A DNA stretch of 64,000 nucleotides. Origin: an uncultured Armatimonadota bacterium. GTDB taxonomy: Bacteria; Armatimonadota; Fimbriimonadia; Fimbriimonadales; Fimbriimonadaceae. The notes below the pieces were generated by a model that worked only from the letters and a program-made list of their open reading frames with translations, searched no databases and was not told the origin of the DNA. Numbering within the stretch: the first letter of the stretch is position 1; every line of letters begins with the position of its first letter. Of the stretch, positions 18,802 to 30,868 are shown piece after piece. The stretch lies in contig CAILEM010000067.1 in the NCBI GenBank assembly GCA_903833215.1, positions 1 through 64,000 of the forward strand, written 5' to 3'. A program made the translations under genes and the position numbers.

Positions 18802-19287
18802 ATGGACGGACTTAATGATTCTCTATCGGGCCAGGCCGGGCTGCTGTCAGAACTCCTGACCGCAGCCATCGAGCCAAAGCTGGAAGCGACCGGTGTAAGT
18901 CTGGGCACATTCGAGCTTCTCAGTGCCGTTCACGCGAGCGGCGGTCGGGCCACTCAAGTGGAGGTCGCCAAACGGTTGGGGATCACACCTCCTTCACTCT
19001 CAGAATCCGTCAAGGGAGCGACGAATCGCAACCTTATCGAGCAACACACCGATTCAGAAGATGGCCGACGAAAAATACTAAAACTCACGCCGAGCGGACG
19101 AAAAGCGATGCTGTCCATCGTCAAAGGTGTTAGTAGCGCTGAAATTCGTATGATTGATGGGATCGATCCGATGCAAATCGCGGTTGCAATAGACGTCTTG
19201 AAAAAGGTGAATCGCAATCTCGCCAGGATCGTACAGGATGAATCCCAACCCAAAAAGCGAGTGAAGGCGGTTAGCCGAGCAACGTAG
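18802..19287 (+). CDS. MarR-family transcriptional regulator
   Basis: 161 residues with a winged helix: the recognition helix lies in TQVEVAKRLGITPPSLSESVKGATNR and the wing in IEQHTDSEDGRRKILKLTPSGRKA, the hallmark DxRxxxxxLT segment of MarR. Flanking helices at both ends form the dimer interface. Such proteins usually repress neighbouring genes and are released by small phenolic or oxidising ligands. The aldo/keto reductase just upstream on the same strand is a plausible target, though I could not identify an operator palindrome. The Lys/Arg-rich tail is unusual but short. Confidence 0.9.
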   Translation: MDGLNDSLSGQAGLLSELLTAAIEPKLEATGVSLGTFELLSAVHASGGRATQVEVAKRLGITPPSLSESVKGATNRNLIEQHTDSEDGRRKILKLTPSGRKAMLSIVKGVSSAEIRMIDGIDPMQIAVAIDVLKKVNRNLARIVQDESQPKKRVKAVSRAT

Positions 19288-19295
19288 CAGGCCCT

Positions 19296-19865
19296 ATGAA
19301 ACCGATTGAATACCGATCAGACATCCAATATCTCCAGGCACTGAGGTGCGTGGAGTATCGCTTGCCGAACCATGGCCATTTGCGCAAGCAGGGCTATGTG
19401 CTGACCTTGGGTCTGCGGTATGGGTTGACCGCCATCGCGGCAACGTTTCACCTTCTGGAAACCGCGAACGGTGAGGATGAGCAACTGATTTTAGGTTCGA
19501 CCAAGTCATGGGGAAGGCTGGTTGAAGATCATGTTCGCTTCGAGATCATTAACCGAGTTCCATTTCGAGTTGACCTTGCCTTCCCCATTGCCGTGAGTCG
19601 ATGTGCGGAGCGATCTATGCGCATTGCGCTTCCCATGGTTCGTCGACTTTGCCCTTTGGAAAGCTGCCTGCAAGAGACCGCCGAGCAATACATCAACGAA
19701 AACATTTACGGCGTCAAGATGAATTGGCCGTGGTACAAGCGGCGGGCTGCAGTAAGGGAATTCCGCCTTCACACCCAAGAATCGTTGAGTTACGCACACA
19801 ACTTTTTCGAGCGTCGCCAGGTAGATCTCGACGAAGTTCCAGAAATTGCCATGTTAGGCGAATAA
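19296..19865 (+). CDS. hypothetical protein
   Basis: Not recognised. 189 residues, soluble, no signal peptide, with an Arg-rich middle and a long helical C-terminus (WYKRRAAVREFRLHTQESL). The ATG lies 8 bases after the MarR stop, so it is probably translated in the same transcript. The frame is clean and GC-rich at third positions, which supports a real gene. No catalytic motif that I can name. Confidence 0.68.
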   Translation: MKPIEYRSDIQYLQALRCVEYRLPNHGHLRKQGYVLTLGLRYGLTAIAATFHLLETANGEDEQLILGSTKSWGRLVEDHVRFEIINRVPFRVDLAFPIAVSRCAERSMRIALPMVRRLCPLESCLQETAEQYINENIYGVKMNWPWYKRRAAVREFRLHTQESLSYAHNFFERRQVDLDEVPEIAMLGE

Positions 19866-19932
19866 ACCTACAACGATTCTCGTTTGTGATTCGTCCTCAG
19901 TCAGCATAGGGGTGTAAGAGGGGCAGCTTTTC

Positions 19933-20304
19933 GTGATCCGGATAGTAGGTCTTCAGAGAAACGAATCAACCGCGCAAGAGTTCGTCTTGCTACAAAACCA
20001 AGGCTCGTTGCGACTGAGTCTTCGGGGACACCTGGTTGTGAGTGATGCCGCTATCGAACATTCCGATCTCTCCTTTGCCGCCCACGCGTTCAACGACGAC
20101 GTGCAGGTTCCGCCCGGGATGTACATCTTGTTGGCGACAGGCCGAGGAAATCCTCGATGGGTTAGAACCAAAGAGGGCGCTCTCGTGTATTACGCATACA
20201 TGAATCGAGACACATCTGTTTGGGAACGCGCCTCAGGATCGGTGCACGTTCTCTGCCCGCAACACACCTTTGCCGAACGGGCTCCAGCGCTGTTGCTGAG
20301 TTGA
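19933..20304 (+). CDS. small protein, possibly lamin-tail-like beta domain
   Basis: 123 residues from GTG 19933, with GAGGGGC about 8 bases upstream. The sequence is nearly all predicted beta: IVGLQRNESTAQEFVLL, then LRLSLRGHLVVSDAA, a PPGMYILLATG strand and an MNRDTSVWERASGSVHVL strand. This order resembles lamin-tail domains (new-residue strand, SGW-like strand, PPG strand, W-D strand), but similarity is weak and the call is tentative. No signal peptide. It ends 32 bases before the CHASE2 gene on the same strand, so it may belong to that module. Confidence 0.6.
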   Translation: MIRIVGLQRNESTAQEFVLLQNQGSLRLSLRGHLVVSDAAIEHSDLSFAAHAFNDDVQVPPGMYILLATGRGNPRWVRTKEGALVYYAYMNRDTSVWERASGSVHVLCPQHTFAERAPALLLS

Positions 20305-20336: not shown

Positions 20337-21770
20337 TTGAGTCAGACAACTCCCGAACACCAATCCATCACGGCTGCGTCATTTCGCGTCCTCGGCTTCC
20401 TCCATAACCGTTTGTGGGGTCGAATTGTCCTCGGCCTCGCCTTAGCGGCGCTCGTGCTTATCTTCAAGAAGTTCGCGATCGAGCACCGTAGTGGGTACGA
20501 AGAGGCACGACTCTGGACTTACGAGCAGATCCAAAGTGTTCTCTCCAATCAGAACCCGACCCAATCTCCGGTTCAGATCGTAGACATCTCCCACATGCCG
20601 AAGCAAAGTGGCAAGAAAGTCGCCGTCACTGGAATCGACGATAACGAAAGTGCCACCTCACGAGCTTCGCTAAAGAATCTCCTTACAAAGATTGCCCAAT
20701 CGGGTGCCCGCTCGATCGGTGTCGACGTTGACTTCTCCCCGGATGATCAAGGCAACCCCATTACCCTCGATGACGCGGAGTTTTTGAAGGACTGTGAGAA
20801 GCTCTCCAAAGAGACCGGCGTCCCCATCTTTTTCGGGGTGGACCGTCATGCCGCCGGCCCAAAAGCAGAATGGCTGGGAAGTATTGAGCATGTCGGACTC
20901 GCGGCCGGCCTTGGAATTGGCAACGAAAAGGTGCAGGGTCCCGCCAATGAAATGTCCGGCCACGTCGATGAAGTCTTAAGAATGTTCTCTTGGACCAAGT
21001 CCGAGCCGAAATTTATTCCCCTACCTTCAATTGCCTATGCGCTCGCGACCGCCAACCACCCCGAATCTCAAGAACTACCAAGTGGACTTTCGTGGGCGAT
21101 TGAGTTCAAATCGGAGTTCGCCCCGGACCCGGCGCTGGAAACGGTCGGATTCCTAGTCGACTATCGACTCTTGCTGCCGCTACGCAAGACGGCCCTTCCT
21201 TATACAAAAGTCGCAACCTCCCCGCCGCAAACCTTTACCGGAAAGGTCGTGATCCTCGGAGTCGTCAACCTCTTCAAAGACGACGGTCGAATACTGAAGC
21301 GCGGAGACGACCTGTTTCGGGTGCCAAGCCGAAGCGGCCTCTATTCTGGTGTCCTGTTGCATGGCTGCGCGGTGGACACGCTCATCGATTCCCCACTCCG
21401 TGAGTGGACCCTTTTAGGGGGAGTCGTCGCCGACTTTGCCTTGGCGTTGTTCGCCATTGGCCTCGTCGAATTTGCGGGGTGGTTCCTTTACGGCCGACAT
21501 GGCAAAAAGCACCACCATTTCCGCATCCACTGGTCGGTTACCGCCGTAATAGCTGTTGCGATTGGTGCAGTTGCGATCCCGTTCGTCGGAACCTTTCGAC
21601 TGGCTTGGGATGACGCGTCATTCGTCGCGCTTGGGCTAATCGCCCATACCGGTCTCGATCATATTCTTGGAAACGCAGTTCACAAACATGAGCCTCCATC
21701 GCACCACGAAACCGAGCCTCCCGCCCCGATAGACCCGACTCCACCGGAAGACGCACCAACGACACCATGA
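20337..21770 (+). CDS. CHASE2-domain membrane sensor protein
   Basis: 477 residues from TTG 20337, with a strong AGGAGAGG upstream. Layout: cytoplasmic start, helix 1 at about 27-45 (LWGRIVLGLALAALVLIF), an extracytoplasmic CHASE2 region at about 60-345 (QIVDISHMP, SIGVDVDFSPDD, VDYRLLLPL, FTGKVVILGVVN, SGVLLHGCAVDTLI), then three C-terminal helices and a Pro-rich tail. CHASE2 is a sensory domain found on kinases, cyclases and, in many bacteria, as a stand-alone protein next to caspases. Here no output domain is fused, so output probably comes from a partner. The stop overlaps the DUF4384 start by four bases (ATGA), which indicates coupling and joint function with the caspase-bearing gene that follows. 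Confidence 0.9.
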   Translation: MSQTTPEHQSITAASFRVLGFLHNRLWGRIVLGLALAALVLIFKKFAIEHRSGYEEARLWTYEQIQSVLSNQNPTQSPVQIVDISHMPKQSGKKVAVTGIDDNESATSRASLKNLLTKIAQSGARSIGVDVDFSPDDQGNPITLDDAEFLKDCEKLSKETGVPIFFGVDRHAAGPKAEWLGSIEHVGLAAGLGIGNEKVQGPANEMSGHVDEVLRMFSWTKSEPKFIPLPSIAYALATANHPESQELPSGLSWAIEFKSEFAPDPALETVGFLVDYRLLLPLRKTALPYTKVATSPPQTFTGKVVILGVVNLFKDDGRILKRGDDLFRVPSRSGLYSGVLLHGCAVDTLIDSPLREWTLLGGVVADFALALFAIGLVEFAGWFLYGRHGKKHHHFRIHWSVTAVIAVAIGAVAIPFVGTFRLAWDDASFVALGLIAHTGLDHILGNAVHKHEPPSHHETEPPAPIDPTPPEDAPTTP

Positions 21771-22708
21771 GAACCCTAAGAATCGTCCTTCCCCTCCTCG
21801 CCAGCGCCTCAACTGCCTTGTGTTTGGCCAGTGTCGACAAGCCAAAATTCGTCGGCTGGATCGTCGATGCGAGTTGTCCAGCCATTAAGCGCAAGCAACT
21901 GTCCGGGAAAGTCGATAACCTAACACCCAGCGATGTCCAGAACCTGCGCCTCTACGCCGGCCAATCGGTTCGAGCCACGAAATCTGGAACCGTCAACCTA
22001 TTACTCCACGGTCACAAAACCCCACTTACGCCTCGAGACGGTTGGGTACTCCTCAAAGAAAATCCGAACTCCGTGACCAAGGGGCAGAGCATTTATCCAG
22101 AATTTGTATCTCCGGCTGGACAGGAGAAAGGCAAGAGCGCGAGCCCTGAGGCGATCTGGCGGCGGATGAGTCTGCTCTCGCTGCAAACTCCGGCCAACGC
22201 GAAAGATCTTCGTGTTCAACTGCGCATCAAACCGGTTGATGCCCAAGGCAAACCCAAAGCAAAGGTGCCGATCGTCAATGGCCTCGTCGCGATCAAACAC
22301 GGGGACCCCGTCGTTGTCGAGATCAGCAACGATAGTTCGATCCCACTTTACATCTCGCTCGTCGATATCGACCGGGTTGCCAACGTGGAGATCCTCAGTC
22401 CTCAAGCTCCTGCCACCGAGGTCCTCGTTCCAGCCAAGTCGAAGTGGACCCGCTTGCCGAGTCCGTTCTACATGAGCGTTCCCAGCGGCTTTGACTCCGG
22501 CATTGAACACTTCAAGGTAATCGCCTCGACTCACCGAATTAACTTGAGCCGCCTCGCCACCAAAGGAATGACCGACCAAGCGGAATCGGTCAAGCCAATT
22601 TCCGATCCATTGGCCTACCTTCTCAAAGCTTGCGGAACCGAGGACACCCTTGCAAATCCGGGCCGATGGACAACCGCGCAACAAGACTTTCTTGTACAAA
22701 GCAAATAA
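21767..22708 (+). CDS. secreted DUF4384-domain protein
   Basis: 313 residues with a signal peptide ending near CLASVDKP. A DUF4384-like domain covers about residues 145-235: the marks are GDPVVVEISND, PLYISLVDIDRVANVEIL and a YMSVPSGFDSG strand followed by FKVIAST. DUF4384 is a beta-sandwich often fused or adjacent to caspases and kinases and is thought to bind or present ligands. Role here is inferred from context: secreted partner of the CHASE2 protein (overlapping genes) and of the WD40-caspase 56 bases downstream. The first 140 residues (a WIVDASCPAIKRKQL region) are of unknown fold. Confidence 0.85.
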   Translation: MRTLRIVLPLLASASTALCLASVDKPKFVGWIVDASCPAIKRKQLSGKVDNLTPSDVQNLRLYAGQSVRATKSGTVNLLLHGHKTPLTPRDGWVLLKENPNSVTKGQSIYPEFVSPAGQEKGKSASPEAIWRRMSLLSLQTPANAKDLRVQLRIKPVDAQGKPKAKVPIVNGLVAIKHGDPVVVEISNDSSIPLYISLVDIDRVANVEILSPQAPATEVLVPAKSKWTRLPSPFYMSVPSGFDSGIEHFKVIASTHRINLSRLATKGMTDQAESVKPISDPLAYLLKACGTEDTLANPGRWTTAQQDFLVQSK

Positions 22709-22764
22709 CGTGTGATCCATCATAAGTGGGTTGCACCTAGATCTGCTCAAGGTTATTTCGTAAG

Positions 22765-25641
22765 ATGGCATTCCTATCGCTTATCCAACTGTCCATCCTT
22801 TTGCTTGCTCGATCGAGGGTGTCCCAGGGACAAGGCCCGACGACTCAGCCAATCTTGCGGATCGAGGCGAATTCCCACGCAGGCTATGTCTCCGGGGTTG
22901 CCACCGATCGCGCCAGTAAATTCCTGGTGACGGCAAGCGATGACAAGTCCGCGCGGGTTTGGGAGCTTCCTTCCCTCCGACTCCTCAAGGTTCTGCGTCC
23001 TCCGATTGGCACCAGCGCCAATGAAGGCAAGCTCTACACCGTCGCCATCTCCCCCGACGGCAGCACCGTCGCCCTCGGTGGCTGGACCGGGTTCGAGTGG
23101 GACAAAATAGTAAGCGTGTACATGTTTGATCGTGAGAGCGGTCAGATGATCGGTCGGATCCAGCAGTTGGCATCGGTCGTTCAGGCCCTGGCCTTCGACT
23201 CTGCCGGAAAGCGCCTTGCGATAGGCCTCGCAAGTGGCGGATTTCGCGTGGCCCAAGTATCCGATGGCGCAACGCTATTCGAAGATAGCAAGGTCACCGA
23301 GGGCGTAACCGGAGTCGCGTTTGAACCGACCGGGAAGCTGGCAGTCTCAAGTTCAGACAAAATCTTACGGCTCTACGATCTCGCCTATACGGCGGTCCAC
23401 CAAGCTGCCTTATCTAGTCTGGGCCTACCTGCGGGACTGGCCTTCTCACCGGACGGTGCCCACATTGCCGTCGCCACCGAAGGGAAGCCTAGCGTCACCC
23501 TCTATTCAGGAACGGACCTGAGCAAGGAGATTTCCCCGCGAACGACGGGACTCAACGAGTCGGTTGGGGCCGTATGTTGGTCGAACGATGGAACAACCCT
23601 CGTGGCAGCGGGAGCCGCCACAAGGCAGGGCCGCTTCATCATGCGCTCGTGGAATAACCACGGGATGGGTGACCCCGTCGACGTACCAGTCGGCAGCAAC
23701 ACCATCTACTCGCTGGCACCCATTGCCGAGAAGGACTTTGCATTCGGTGCCGCAGATTCCTTTGGAGTAGCTGCCAACGCTGCAATTGAGGTTGCCGTAG
23801 CAGACCCACGAAGCGTTGGGGCAGGTTTTCAGGTTACTCGCGATGGAGATGGAGTTTGGTTTGCCTACGCCAACGGGGGCAACGAGCCCGCATCGTTTTC
23901 GATTGCCGCACGCGCCATCAACGTGGCGTCAACCAGTGATGCCGTTCACTCCGCCGGGACACCGCCTATCCATAGCGCCGAGGGAATCTCGGTGACGAAC
24001 TGGTTTGCCTCCGACGAGCCGAAGCTCAACGGCGTGAAGTTGCCACTGCGCGAGGGAGAGAAATCGCAATGCTTCAGCATCGTTCCCGATGGCTCCGGCA
24101 TGCTGCTTGGCACCGATTGGCGAGTCTGCAGCTACGACGCGAAGGGCACGTTGAAATGGGGGACCGACACCGCGAGTACCTGTTGGGGCATCAACCTAAC
24201 CGGCGATGGCAAACTCGTCATTGCGACTTTGGGTGATGGGACGATCCGCTGGTACAACGCCTCAACCGGTGCCGAACTGCTCGCCCTGTATCCGCATACC
24301 GACAAGAAGCGGTGGGTTCTCTTCACCGCGAGTGGTTATTACGATTGTTCGCCTGGCGGCGAGGATCTCATCGGCTGGAGTGTGAACAACGGTCCTGATC
24401 ACGCAGCCGACTTCTACCCTGCCAGTCGTTTCCGACCCAGCAAATACCGCCCCGACGTCATCGACAAGATCCTGGGAACAATGGACGAAGCCGAGGCGCT
24501 ACGCCTTGCCGATGCCGCTCGGACCCAAGCCCCCAAAGAACGTGCTGTGCAGGAGATTCTTCCTCCCGTCGTCCGCATACTCAGCAAGAACAACCAGGGA
24601 TTCGACGGAAAATCCGCGAAGATTGAGTACTCGGTGAAGACGCCAACCGGCGAGCCGATCACGAAAATTGCCTTCCTCATCGATGGGATATCGGTGAAGG
24701 TAGAAGATCATCTGAACTTGGTCGCCAAGGTGGAAGCCAAGAAGGATGTCACTCTCGATCTCCCCAATAAAGACGCCAACGTCTCTGTGATCGCCTTCAA
24801 TCGGTTTGGCGCCGGCGAGGCTGAAACGGTGAGTTTTCGCTACAAGTCCGGCTCGGTGACGCCACCGGTTCCCCCCGCCCCCGTCATTCAGCCCACTCTG
24901 TACGTCCTCTCGATTGGAGTGGGCTCGTACAAAGACGCCCGTGTGGCAAGCCTCAAATTCCCGGTAAAAGACGCCAACGATTTCGCGAACAAGATCAAAG
25001 CCCAAGGAGGCGGACTGTACAAGGATATCCAGATCCGAACCCTGCCCAATCCCAACTTGGAGACGATCATGGACGGCCTGGAGTGGATCCAGAAGTCAAT
25101 GAATTCCCACGACGTGGCGATGATCTACCTGTCAGGCCACGGCGAAAACGACAACTCCAATAATTACTATTTCCTCCCCGCCACGTTCAACCAAGATCGC
25201 GTGCTAGCCACCGGCCTCAGCTTTGCCGCGATTCGCAACACCATCGAATCTCTCCCCGGAAAGCGTTTGCTGTTCGTCGACACCTGCCGTTCCGGCAACG
25301 CTTTCGGCAACGGAACCGTGCGCGGCGGAGCGGGGGATATCACCGGCTTAATCCACGAACTTTCGAGCGCCGAAAACGGCGTGGTTGTGTTCACCGCATG
25401 CACCGGTCGTGAGTCCGCGATCGAAAAAGACGAGTGGGGCAACGGCGCCTTCACGAAAGCCCTCCTTGAGGGCCTCGACGGCAAAGCCTCGACTTCGCCC
25501 GACGGCAAGGTCACGGTCACCATGCTCGACGCCTACATCACCAAGCAAGTAGCTGCCCTCACCGGCGGCCGCCAACACGCCACCTGCATCAAACCCCAAA
25601 CCATCCCCGACTTCCCCATCGCCATCGCGAAGGTCAAGTAA
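22765..25641 (+). CDS. secreted WD40-repeat caspase-family protease (C14)
   Basis: 958 residues. A signal peptide (MAFLSLIQLSILLLARS) is followed by a beta-propeller of WD40 repeats from about residue 35 to 500 (LVTASDDKSARVWELPS, LAFDSAGKRLAIGL, IRWYNASTGAEL). A conserved linker (CSPGGEDLIGWSVNNG, DEAEALRLADAART) leads to an Ig-like domain at about 600-690, then a caspase domain from about 710. The catalytic dyad is intact: H792 in YLSGHGEND and C841 in FVDTCRSG, and a YKDARVASLKFPVKDAN start is typical of bacterial caspases. This should be a cysteine endopeptidase with Arg/Lys- or Asp-type preference not readable here. Because of the signal peptide it likely acts outside the cytoplasm, unlike most metacaspases. 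Third gene of the CHASE2 / DUF4384 / caspase module; the propeller probably recognises or scaffolds a target. Confidence 0.93.
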   Translation: MAFLSLIQLSILLLARSRVSQGQGPTTQPILRIEANSHAGYVSGVATDRASKFLVTASDDKSARVWELPSLRLLKVLRPPIGTSANEGKLYTVAISPDGSTVALGGWTGFEWDKIVSVYMFDRESGQMIGRIQQLASVVQALAFDSAGKRLAIGLASGGFRVAQVSDGATLFEDSKVTEGVTGVAFEPTGKLAVSSSDKILRLYDLAYTAVHQAALSSLGLPAGLAFSPDGAHIAVATEGKPSVTLYSGTDLSKEISPRTTGLNESVGAVCWSNDGTTLVAAGAATRQGRFIMRSWNNHGMGDPVDVPVGSNTIYSLAPIAEKDFAFGAADSFGVAANAAIEVAVADPRSVGAGFQVTRDGDGVWFAYANGGNEPASFSIAARAINVASTSDAVHSAGTPPIHSAEGISVTNWFASDEPKLNGVKLPLREGEKSQCFSIVPDGSGMLLGTDWRVCSYDAKGTLKWGTDTASTCWGINLTGDGKLVIATLGDGTIRWYNASTGAELLALYPHTDKKRWVLFTASGYYDCSPGGEDLIGWSVNNGPDHAADFYPASRFRPSKYRPDVIDKILGTMDEAEALRLADAARTQAPKERAVQEILPPVVRILSKNNQGFDGKSAKIEYSVKTPTGEPITKIAFLIDGISVKVEDHLNLVAKVEAKKDVTLDLPNKDANVSVIAFNRFGAGEAETVSFRYKSGSVTPPVPPAPVIQPTLYVLSIGVGSYKDARVASLKFPVKDANDFANKIKAQGGGLYKDIQIRTLPNPNLETIMDGLEWIQKSMNSHDVAMIYLSGHGENDNSNNYYFLPATFNQDRVLATGLSFAAIRNTIESLPGKRLLFVDTCRSGNAFGNGTVRGGAGDITGLIHELSSAENGVVVFTACTGRESAIEKDEWGNGAFTKALLEGLDGKASTSPDGKVTVTMLDAYITKQVAALTGGRQHATCIKPQTIPDFPIAIAKVK

Positions 25642-25671
25642 CAACCTGCATGGTCGTCGACGATCACCAGG

Positions 25672-25704
25672 AGCGCCGGAGGTGCGTCCCTATACCAGCC
25701 CAGG
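25672..25704. repeat. 33-bp AGCGCCGGAGGTGCGTCC repeat, copy A
   Basis: Identical over 33 bases to copy B, 191 bases downstream. Lies directly after the caspase gene, at the edge of the accessory island. Confidence 0.85.
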
Positions 25705-25862
25705 CCTACCCCTCCGAAAGCACCAACGGTGCGCCCCATAATAGCGAAGGCCGCACGCCTGGTACCGGCAGCCGCCCGTTCCCGGAGCGCCAACGGTGCG
25801 ATCCATCTCGTCTGTGGGCGCCGCCCATAGACCAACCCAAAACGTCGCAGGCCACATCCGGT

Positions 25863-25906
25863 AGCGCCGGAGGTGCGTCCCTATACCAGCCCAGGGTGAA
25901 ACCCTG
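25863..25906. repeat. AGCGCCGGAGGTGCGTCC repeat, copy B, with CCAGGGTGAAACCCTGG palindrome
   Basis: Same 33 bases as copy A followed by the palindrome CCAGGGTGAAACCCTGG, which can fold back. An inverted copy of the whole unit lies at 30824-30868. Confidence 0.85.
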
Positions 25907-26426
25907 GTGAAATTGAGCCACCAACCCCAGAGCCCTGAATGGGCGACATATTTCGTCGCTGGGCATCGCCCGACGACTCCGCTTAACGCCAAAAGTCCAC
26001 CACATCGGTACCCATCCCAATTCGTCCTCCGACCGGCTCGCTGCTCGTTCAATCGTTTTGTTTTCTTCGAGGTCTCGCTCGAACGCTCACACCGCTGGGT
26101 GCTGTCTCCCCCCGCCATCCCGAACCGTCGCTTAACCGTTCGTCATCGCTGGGCTCGCGTCAAACTCGGCCCTTCGGCCTCAAACAGTGACGCGCTGACT
26201 GCCCAGCAACGAGCGAACGGCGACGCTTAGGGACGTCGGGGGGAGACGAGTTGGACTTTCCCCTTCCGGAACCCTGCGGGTGATCACAGGCTGGGTTTTC
26301 AAAACGACCGGCCTACTCCTCCGAGACCACCAACGGTGCGCCCAATATTAGCGAAGGGTGAAACCCTGGACTCGCCGACACATCCTGTCTGTGGGCACCG
26401 CCCACAGACCATGATAAAATACGTGT

Positions 26427-30823: not shown

Positions 30824-30868
30824 CCAGGGTTTCACCCTGGGCTGATATAGGGACGCATCTCTGGCGCT
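30824..30868. repeat. inverted copy C of the AGCGCCGGAGGTGCGTCC repeat
   Basis: Reverse complement of copy B: 3 mismatches over the 33-bp unit (30836-30868), and a perfect match over the attached CCAGGGTGAAACCCTGG palindrome (30825-30841). It lies on the far side of the toxin-antitoxin island from copies A and B, in inverted orientation. Confidence 0.85.

Follow-up and report, generated by a model that had tools for sequence, protein, structure and literature searches.

Prokaryotic caspase homologues have mostly been treated as cytoplasmic death proteases. The closest described relatives of the protease considered here are the prokaryotic metacaspases and orthocaspases (MEROPS C14; PMC3501461, PMC8283722), which share with it the Peptidase_C14 domain, the His-Cys dyad and WD40 repeats, and some of which also possess an N-terminal helix or signal peptide. 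Caspases with WD40 repeats, others with DUF4384 and others with signal peptides are already known (PMC3501461, PMC7475262, PMC8283722, PMC6426788). A CHASE2 sensor is joined with a caspase domain in the CHASE2-metacaspase of Trichodesmium erythraeum (PMC2853523, PMC3501461), a DUF4384-type domain is linked to the caspase in caspase-DUF4384 proteins (PMC6426788, PMC7475262), and the gene for a small exported protein lies beside that of a CHASE2 sensor in the FecR (LysM-FecR)/CHASE2 histidine kinase operon, BiofilmReg (PMC5192318). Our literature search found no description of a module that unites exported caspases with CHASE2 and DUF4384, and it encountered CHASE2 and DUF4384 together only as separate accessory domains.

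Here, we have analysed a three-gene locus in a window of 64,000 nucleotides from an uncultured Armatimonadota bacterium. In T. erythraeum CHASE2 and caspase form one fused protein whose caspase is predicted to be cytoplasmic (PMC2853523, PMC3501461), whereas here they are encoded by separate genes and the caspase is probably exported. The CHASE2 protein of the BiofilmReg operon (PMC5192318) has a histidine kinase output, whereas the one described here has no output domain, is followed by a caspase and is accompanied by a small protein in which FecR homology was looked for and not found. In contrast to the caspase-DUF4384 proteins (PMC6426788, PMC7475262), the DUF4384-type domain here appears to form an exported protein of its own that is coupled to CHASE2. 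Compared with known metacaspases, the caspase domain lies C-terminally, preceded by two propeller blocks and by an Ig-like domain, and the signal peptide is conserved across a defined cross-phylum family. We propose, and regard the chances as evenly balanced, that the three genes form an envelope-side sensor-protease module which, under the control of a signal, would cleave after Arg/Lys in the extracytoplasmic space. The features on which this proposal draws are as follows.

20337-21770, + strand: gene 1, CHASE2 membrane protein of 477 aa with a Pro-rich tail at its end (Pfam CHASE2, hydrophobic helices)
21767-21770, + strand: 4-nt ATGA overlap of the gene 1 stop and the gene 2 start (sequence)
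21767-22708, + strand: gene 2, predicted exported DUF4384-like protein of 313 aa (signal-peptide-like N-terminus, sub-threshold DUF4384 match, orthologue in the same position in sister species G004)
22142-22702, + strand: region encoding about residues 126-312 of gene 2, homologous to a caspase C-terminal domain (BLASTP, genome search)
22765-25641, + strand: gene 3, probably exported WD40-caspase of 958 aa (Pfam WD40 and Peptidase_C14, AlphaFold2, family of 80 loci)
25138-25140, + strand: codon of catalytic His792 (invariant in 28/28 aligned family members)
25279-25287, + strand: codons of Asp839 (predicted S1 pocket, basic P1), Thr840 and catalytic Cys841 (Asp839 and Cys841 invariant in 28/28)

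The preliminary description of this DNA had placed three genes on one strand with the first two overlapping by 4 nt, and all of its coordinates, the + strand and the ATGA overlap proved right. This overlap makes translational coupling of genes 1 and 2 likely on sequence grounds. Genes 2 and 3 are separated by 56 nt, and no terminator was called in this gap. The upstream genes at 18802-20304 were considered as operon members and rejected, given that the genes adjoining the CHASE2-DUF4384 pair in the sister species are different. Directly 3' of the caspase gene, positions 25642-26369 hold imperfect repeats of ~36-63 nt that are 72-89% identical, with a further weak copy of the repeat core at 30848; these look like a repeated intergenic element.

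Gene 1 starts with a TTG codon, upstream of which lies AGGAGAGG. Its Pfam CHASE2 match (61.5 bits vs a cut-off of 26.3) covers residues 52-366, with an N-terminal hydrophobic helix before it (30-48) and at least two C-terminal helices after it (359-377 and 401-419; a possible third is only weak), an arrangement that agrees with the CHASE2-sensor architecture. Because the N-tail and the loop joining the first two C-terminal helices carry the positive charges, the CHASE2 domain is expected to lie outside. The cytoplasmic output domain that is usual in this class, a kinase or cyclase, was not found by Pfam in the 477 residues, and beyond the C-terminal helices there is a proline-rich tail and nothing else. 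The original assignment of a CHASE2 membrane sensor without an output domain therefore holds, and this is the only CHASE2 protein in its genome.

Gene 2 had been described as a secreted DUF4384 protein. The first part of this stands, the N-terminus being a clear Sec-type signal peptide, but the DUF4384 match is weak (19.5 bits, under the Pfam cut-off of 27, E=0.0011) and falls in the same register with a profile built in this analysis, although the domain is backed independently by homology to caspase C-termini. When a profile of gene 2 and its orthologue in the sister species was searched against 291 genomes of the phylum, the only other matches were in G201 and G269 (E=2.2e-7 and 1.7e-9), both within the C-terminal half of gene 2. 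Pairwise BLASTP of this half against the two caspase C-termini, as single comparisons, gave E=6e-14 and 5e-19. In G201 the part that matches gene 2 is the C-terminal domain of an exported caspase, which scores 75 bits for Peptidase_C14 and has the dyad motifs SGHG and DSCHSG; the G269 frame has a DSCFSG motif and no Pfam caspase match in the stretch scanned. The domains that match gene 2 at L211 and L210 are likewise under the DUF4384 cut-off. Since its C-terminal half is homologous to caspase C-termini elsewhere, gene 2 looks like a stand-alone version of a domain that is attached to caspases in other genomes, and these comparisons support its homology with exported caspases. A FecR-like identity for gene 2, prompted by the company it keeps, was rejected (no Pfam FecR match; hhalign probability 1.5%). 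AlphaFold of gene 2 alone returned a pLDDT of 33, too low for the model to be of use.

Gene 3 carries a Peptidase_C14 domain (47.1 bits vs a cut-off of 21.4) together with WD40 repeats. Its order is a signal helix (2-19), two propeller-like blocks (~30-545), linker helices, an Ig-like domain (~600-695) and the caspase (710-955), where the Ig-like and caspase names come from Pfam and the order of strands and helices, the model coordinates not having been inspected. The AlphaFold2 model, built on 28 family members, has a pLDDT of 86.8 and a pTM of 0.86. The hits listed by Foldseek for the whole protein are propellers and say nothing about the protease part. The NCBIfam model for EACC1-associated caspases (NF047832) scored 81.8 bits, under its cut-off of 140, and a PDB sequence search with the caspase domain alone returned weak matches to MCR-1-type transferases around the His motif, which we judged to be chance. 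The 958-residue caspase with an intact His792/Cys841 dyad was confirmed, with Asp839 also intact, and the enzyme is apparently active. In metacaspases the S1 residue is an Asp placed two positions ahead of the catalytic Cys, and because Asp839 stands in this place, cleavage after a basic P1 residue (Arg/Lys) is predicted.

A scan of one genome per species placed gene 3 in a family of 80 loci, most of which aligned near full length at 25-43% identity, with members in Pseudomonadota, Thermodesulfobacteriota, Acidobacteriota, Bacteroidota, Spirochaetota, Armatimonadota and others. We scored signal peptides with a home-made rule rather than SignalP (a hydrophobic core, a net positive n-region and small residues at -3/-1), by which 51/62 family members have one, compared with 157/608 background ORFs. 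In the family this peptide sits just before a conserved PILRIETGMH motif, and export of the family is well supported. The preliminary description had assigned signal peptides to both gene 2 and gene 3; whilst the former is clear, the latter is atypical. The N-terminus of gene 3, MAFLSLIQLSILLLARSRVSQGQG, is hydrophobic but without a charged n-region, and it fails the rule through a Gln in the core as well as this missing charge. It may be, then, that the signal peptide has been lost and that the window caspase is a cytoplasmic enzyme acting as a classical orthocaspase, a reading that would suit a hydrophobic stretch preceded by no positive charge and followed by Arg16 and Arg18. We nevertheless consider this very unlikely, as the stretch lies exactly where the orthologues' signal peptide sits, just before the conserved PILRIE motif, AlphaFold2 gives a separate N-terminal helix followed by disorder, and export is what caspases of this phylum ordinarily show. 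Export of the window caspase itself is likely, mainly because its orthologues carry the signal peptide.

The same rule found a signal peptide in 19/23 testable caspases of the phylum, including the second caspase of this genome (L031), so that exported caspases are, by prediction, the rule in Armatimonadota. The view that an exported caspase is the opposite of ordinary metacaspases consequently had to be given up for these bacteria; exported or membrane metacaspases were already noted in 2012 (PMC3501461). In one genome of the same genus (G005, L106:5763-12108), three exported caspases lie within 6.5 kb, the first and third with DUF4384 and the second a different caspase.

Conservation of the three-gene order in other genomes had been suggested as a check on the module. 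The combination does recur, in G045, G092 and L127, but the strict triplet is not universal. Amongst 19 relatives of the same genus that were searched, counterparts of both gene 1 (46% identity) and gene 2 (36%) occur only in the sister species G004, where their order is kept and the CHASE2 protein is also without an output domain. Gene 3 is absent from this genome; a different exported caspase-TPR gene converges on the gene 2 orthologue with a 4-nt overlap. This bears on the proposal in both directions, since the CHASE2-DUF4384 pair touches an exported caspase gene there too, and yet the caspase partner has been swapped. In a member of the same family (G045:C16) a CHASE2-cyclase is followed by a small exported protein and then an exported WD40-caspase, and elsewhere in the phylum (G092:C3) a CHASE2-cyclase is followed by a small exported protein and then an exported caspase-PEGA-TPR protein, the cyclase being read from sequence in G045 and from Pfam in G092. 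Because it carries a cyclase, CHASE2 in these two genomes must also signal inward, which counts against the module. The gene 3 orthologue of G092 lies elsewhere (C32), where it adjoins an exported caspase-DUF4384 fusion.

More distantly, in an uncultured proteobacterium (L127), genes for an OmpA-WD40-caspase, the gene 3 orthologue, DUF4384 (31.9 bits), FecR (33 bits, both over their cut-offs), a CHASE2-cyclase and an LPP20 lipoprotein lie contiguously on one strand. The first of these, adjoining the gene 3 orthologue at L127:4893-9842, encodes a 1649-aa protein of TPR, OmpA, WD40 repeats and caspase; by its domains this OmpA-fused caspase would fit the periplasm and may tie such caspases to the cell wall side. 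In Flaviaesturariibacter (L206:5110-11157), genes for an exported caspase, a trypsin-PDZ protease, an output-less CHASE2 protein (~394 aa) and a small exported protein occur together, a row that could possibly represent a periplasmic protease relay. A transglutaminase-like exported protein is encoded near the WD40-caspase at L131:4299-8157 and L129:3354-5060 (Geomonas; Geobacter sp. OR-1 by similar N-terminus). CHASE2 genes suggested by a BLAST cluster in L142 and L159 were not counted, as Pfam found none in those stretches, and a PstB-like ABC ATPase and similar single-linkage neighbour clusters were taken as chance neighbours.

Is the association between these genes more frequent than might be expected? 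Across 29 genomes of the phylum, a caspase is encoded within 10 kb of 4/52 CHASE2 genes where 0.60 would be expected (P=0.003); leaving out the window's genome gives 3 against 0.59 (P=0.02). Across 40 genomes with the gene 3 family, there are 8 cases of CHASE2 within 8 kb of DUF4384 (0.51 expected) and 5 cases of the family within 10 kb of CHASE2 (0.32 expected, P about 2e-5). These figures need careful interpretation, given that the Poisson values ignore shared ancestry and clustered genes, that the genomes were partly chosen for having CHASE2 or the caspase, and that 2/5 of the caspase-CHASE2 cases are Geobacterales. The co-occurrence of CHASE2, DUF4384 and caspases that had been claimed beyond this genome is borne out, as it recurs in other genomes above expectation. 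Most members of the gene 3 family have no CHASE2 within 10 kb (it is near in 5/40 genomes), so the link is recurrent and not obligatory.

The main rival to the module is that two independent units stand side by side, namely a CHASE2-DUF4384 sensor pair and a separately arrived exported WD40-caspase that works alone. That most of the family lacks a nearby CHASE2 would be expected on this reading, as would the separate start region of gene 3 after its 56-nt gap, the scattering of its close orthologues over phyla, and the presence in the sister species of another caspase, in convergent orientation, in place of gene 3. The caspase tree is compatible with it too, the window member having no strongly supported place (93/80) and a long branch of 1.26. 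Set against these points, the pair adjoins an exported caspase of one kind or another in each of the two species where it occurs, CHASE2, a small exported protein and an exported caspase recur in G045 and G092, the co-location is above expectation, and the gene 2 domain is fused to caspases elsewhere. On balance we find two separate units a doubtful explanation.

The envelope-side module starts from the layout, the domains, the intact dyad and the statistical co-occurrence of the parts that the sequences reveal; from these we infer the interaction of the proteins, gating by CHASE2, a signal, substrates and a purpose, which may be envelope stress or quality control, or controlled lysis. The CHASE2 protein would be anchored in the cytoplasmic membrane, its sensor domain facing outwards, and the co-translated DUF4384-like protein would be exported and serve it as a soluble partner or adaptor. 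The WD40-caspase, also exported, would dock through its propellers and, once a signal is sensed, cleave extracytoplasmic (envelope or extracellular) proteins after Arg/Lys. OmpA, FecR, LPP20 and trypsin-PDZ as neighbours in relatives point to envelope functions, whereas the signal peptide of the window caspase, in lacking a charged n-region, weighs against the scheme. It is a more tentative suggestion that a relay lying wholly outside the cytoplasm, from output-less CHASE2 through a DUF4384/FecR-type exported adaptor to the exported WD40-caspase, extends across phyla.

An exported caspase triggered by a sensor could also serve suicide or fratricide by destroying the envelope of the producing cell or of a neighbour. 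Caspase homologues have repeatedly been proposed to act in the cell death of prokaryotes, and for the extracellular ones Asplund-Samuelsson et al. (PMC3501461) suggested a role at the cell surface or in fratricide. A PADLOC caspase model does match the gene 3 domain, but amongst the caspase-type models it is only the generic one, reporting on the caspase fold, and no PADLOC defence-system model matched genes 1 and 2. Beside the caspase there is no toxin, immunity or NTP-switch gene, and in relatives it is envelope proteins and signalling enzymes that are encoded nearby. Cell death is possible, with nothing in this analysis specifically favouring it, and we regard such a system as improbable.

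Family or neighbourhood members occur in the sequenced strains Geobacter sp. OR-1, Geomonas sp. Red32, Azospirillum agricola and Flaviaesturariibacter aridisoli. A conserved neighbourhood of exported caspases with CHASE2, DUF4384 and FecR leads to a concrete hypothesis for each of these components, that of sensing and proteolysis in the envelope, and the recurrence of its parts in distant bacteria suggests a little-studied control of proteolysis outside the cytoplasm.
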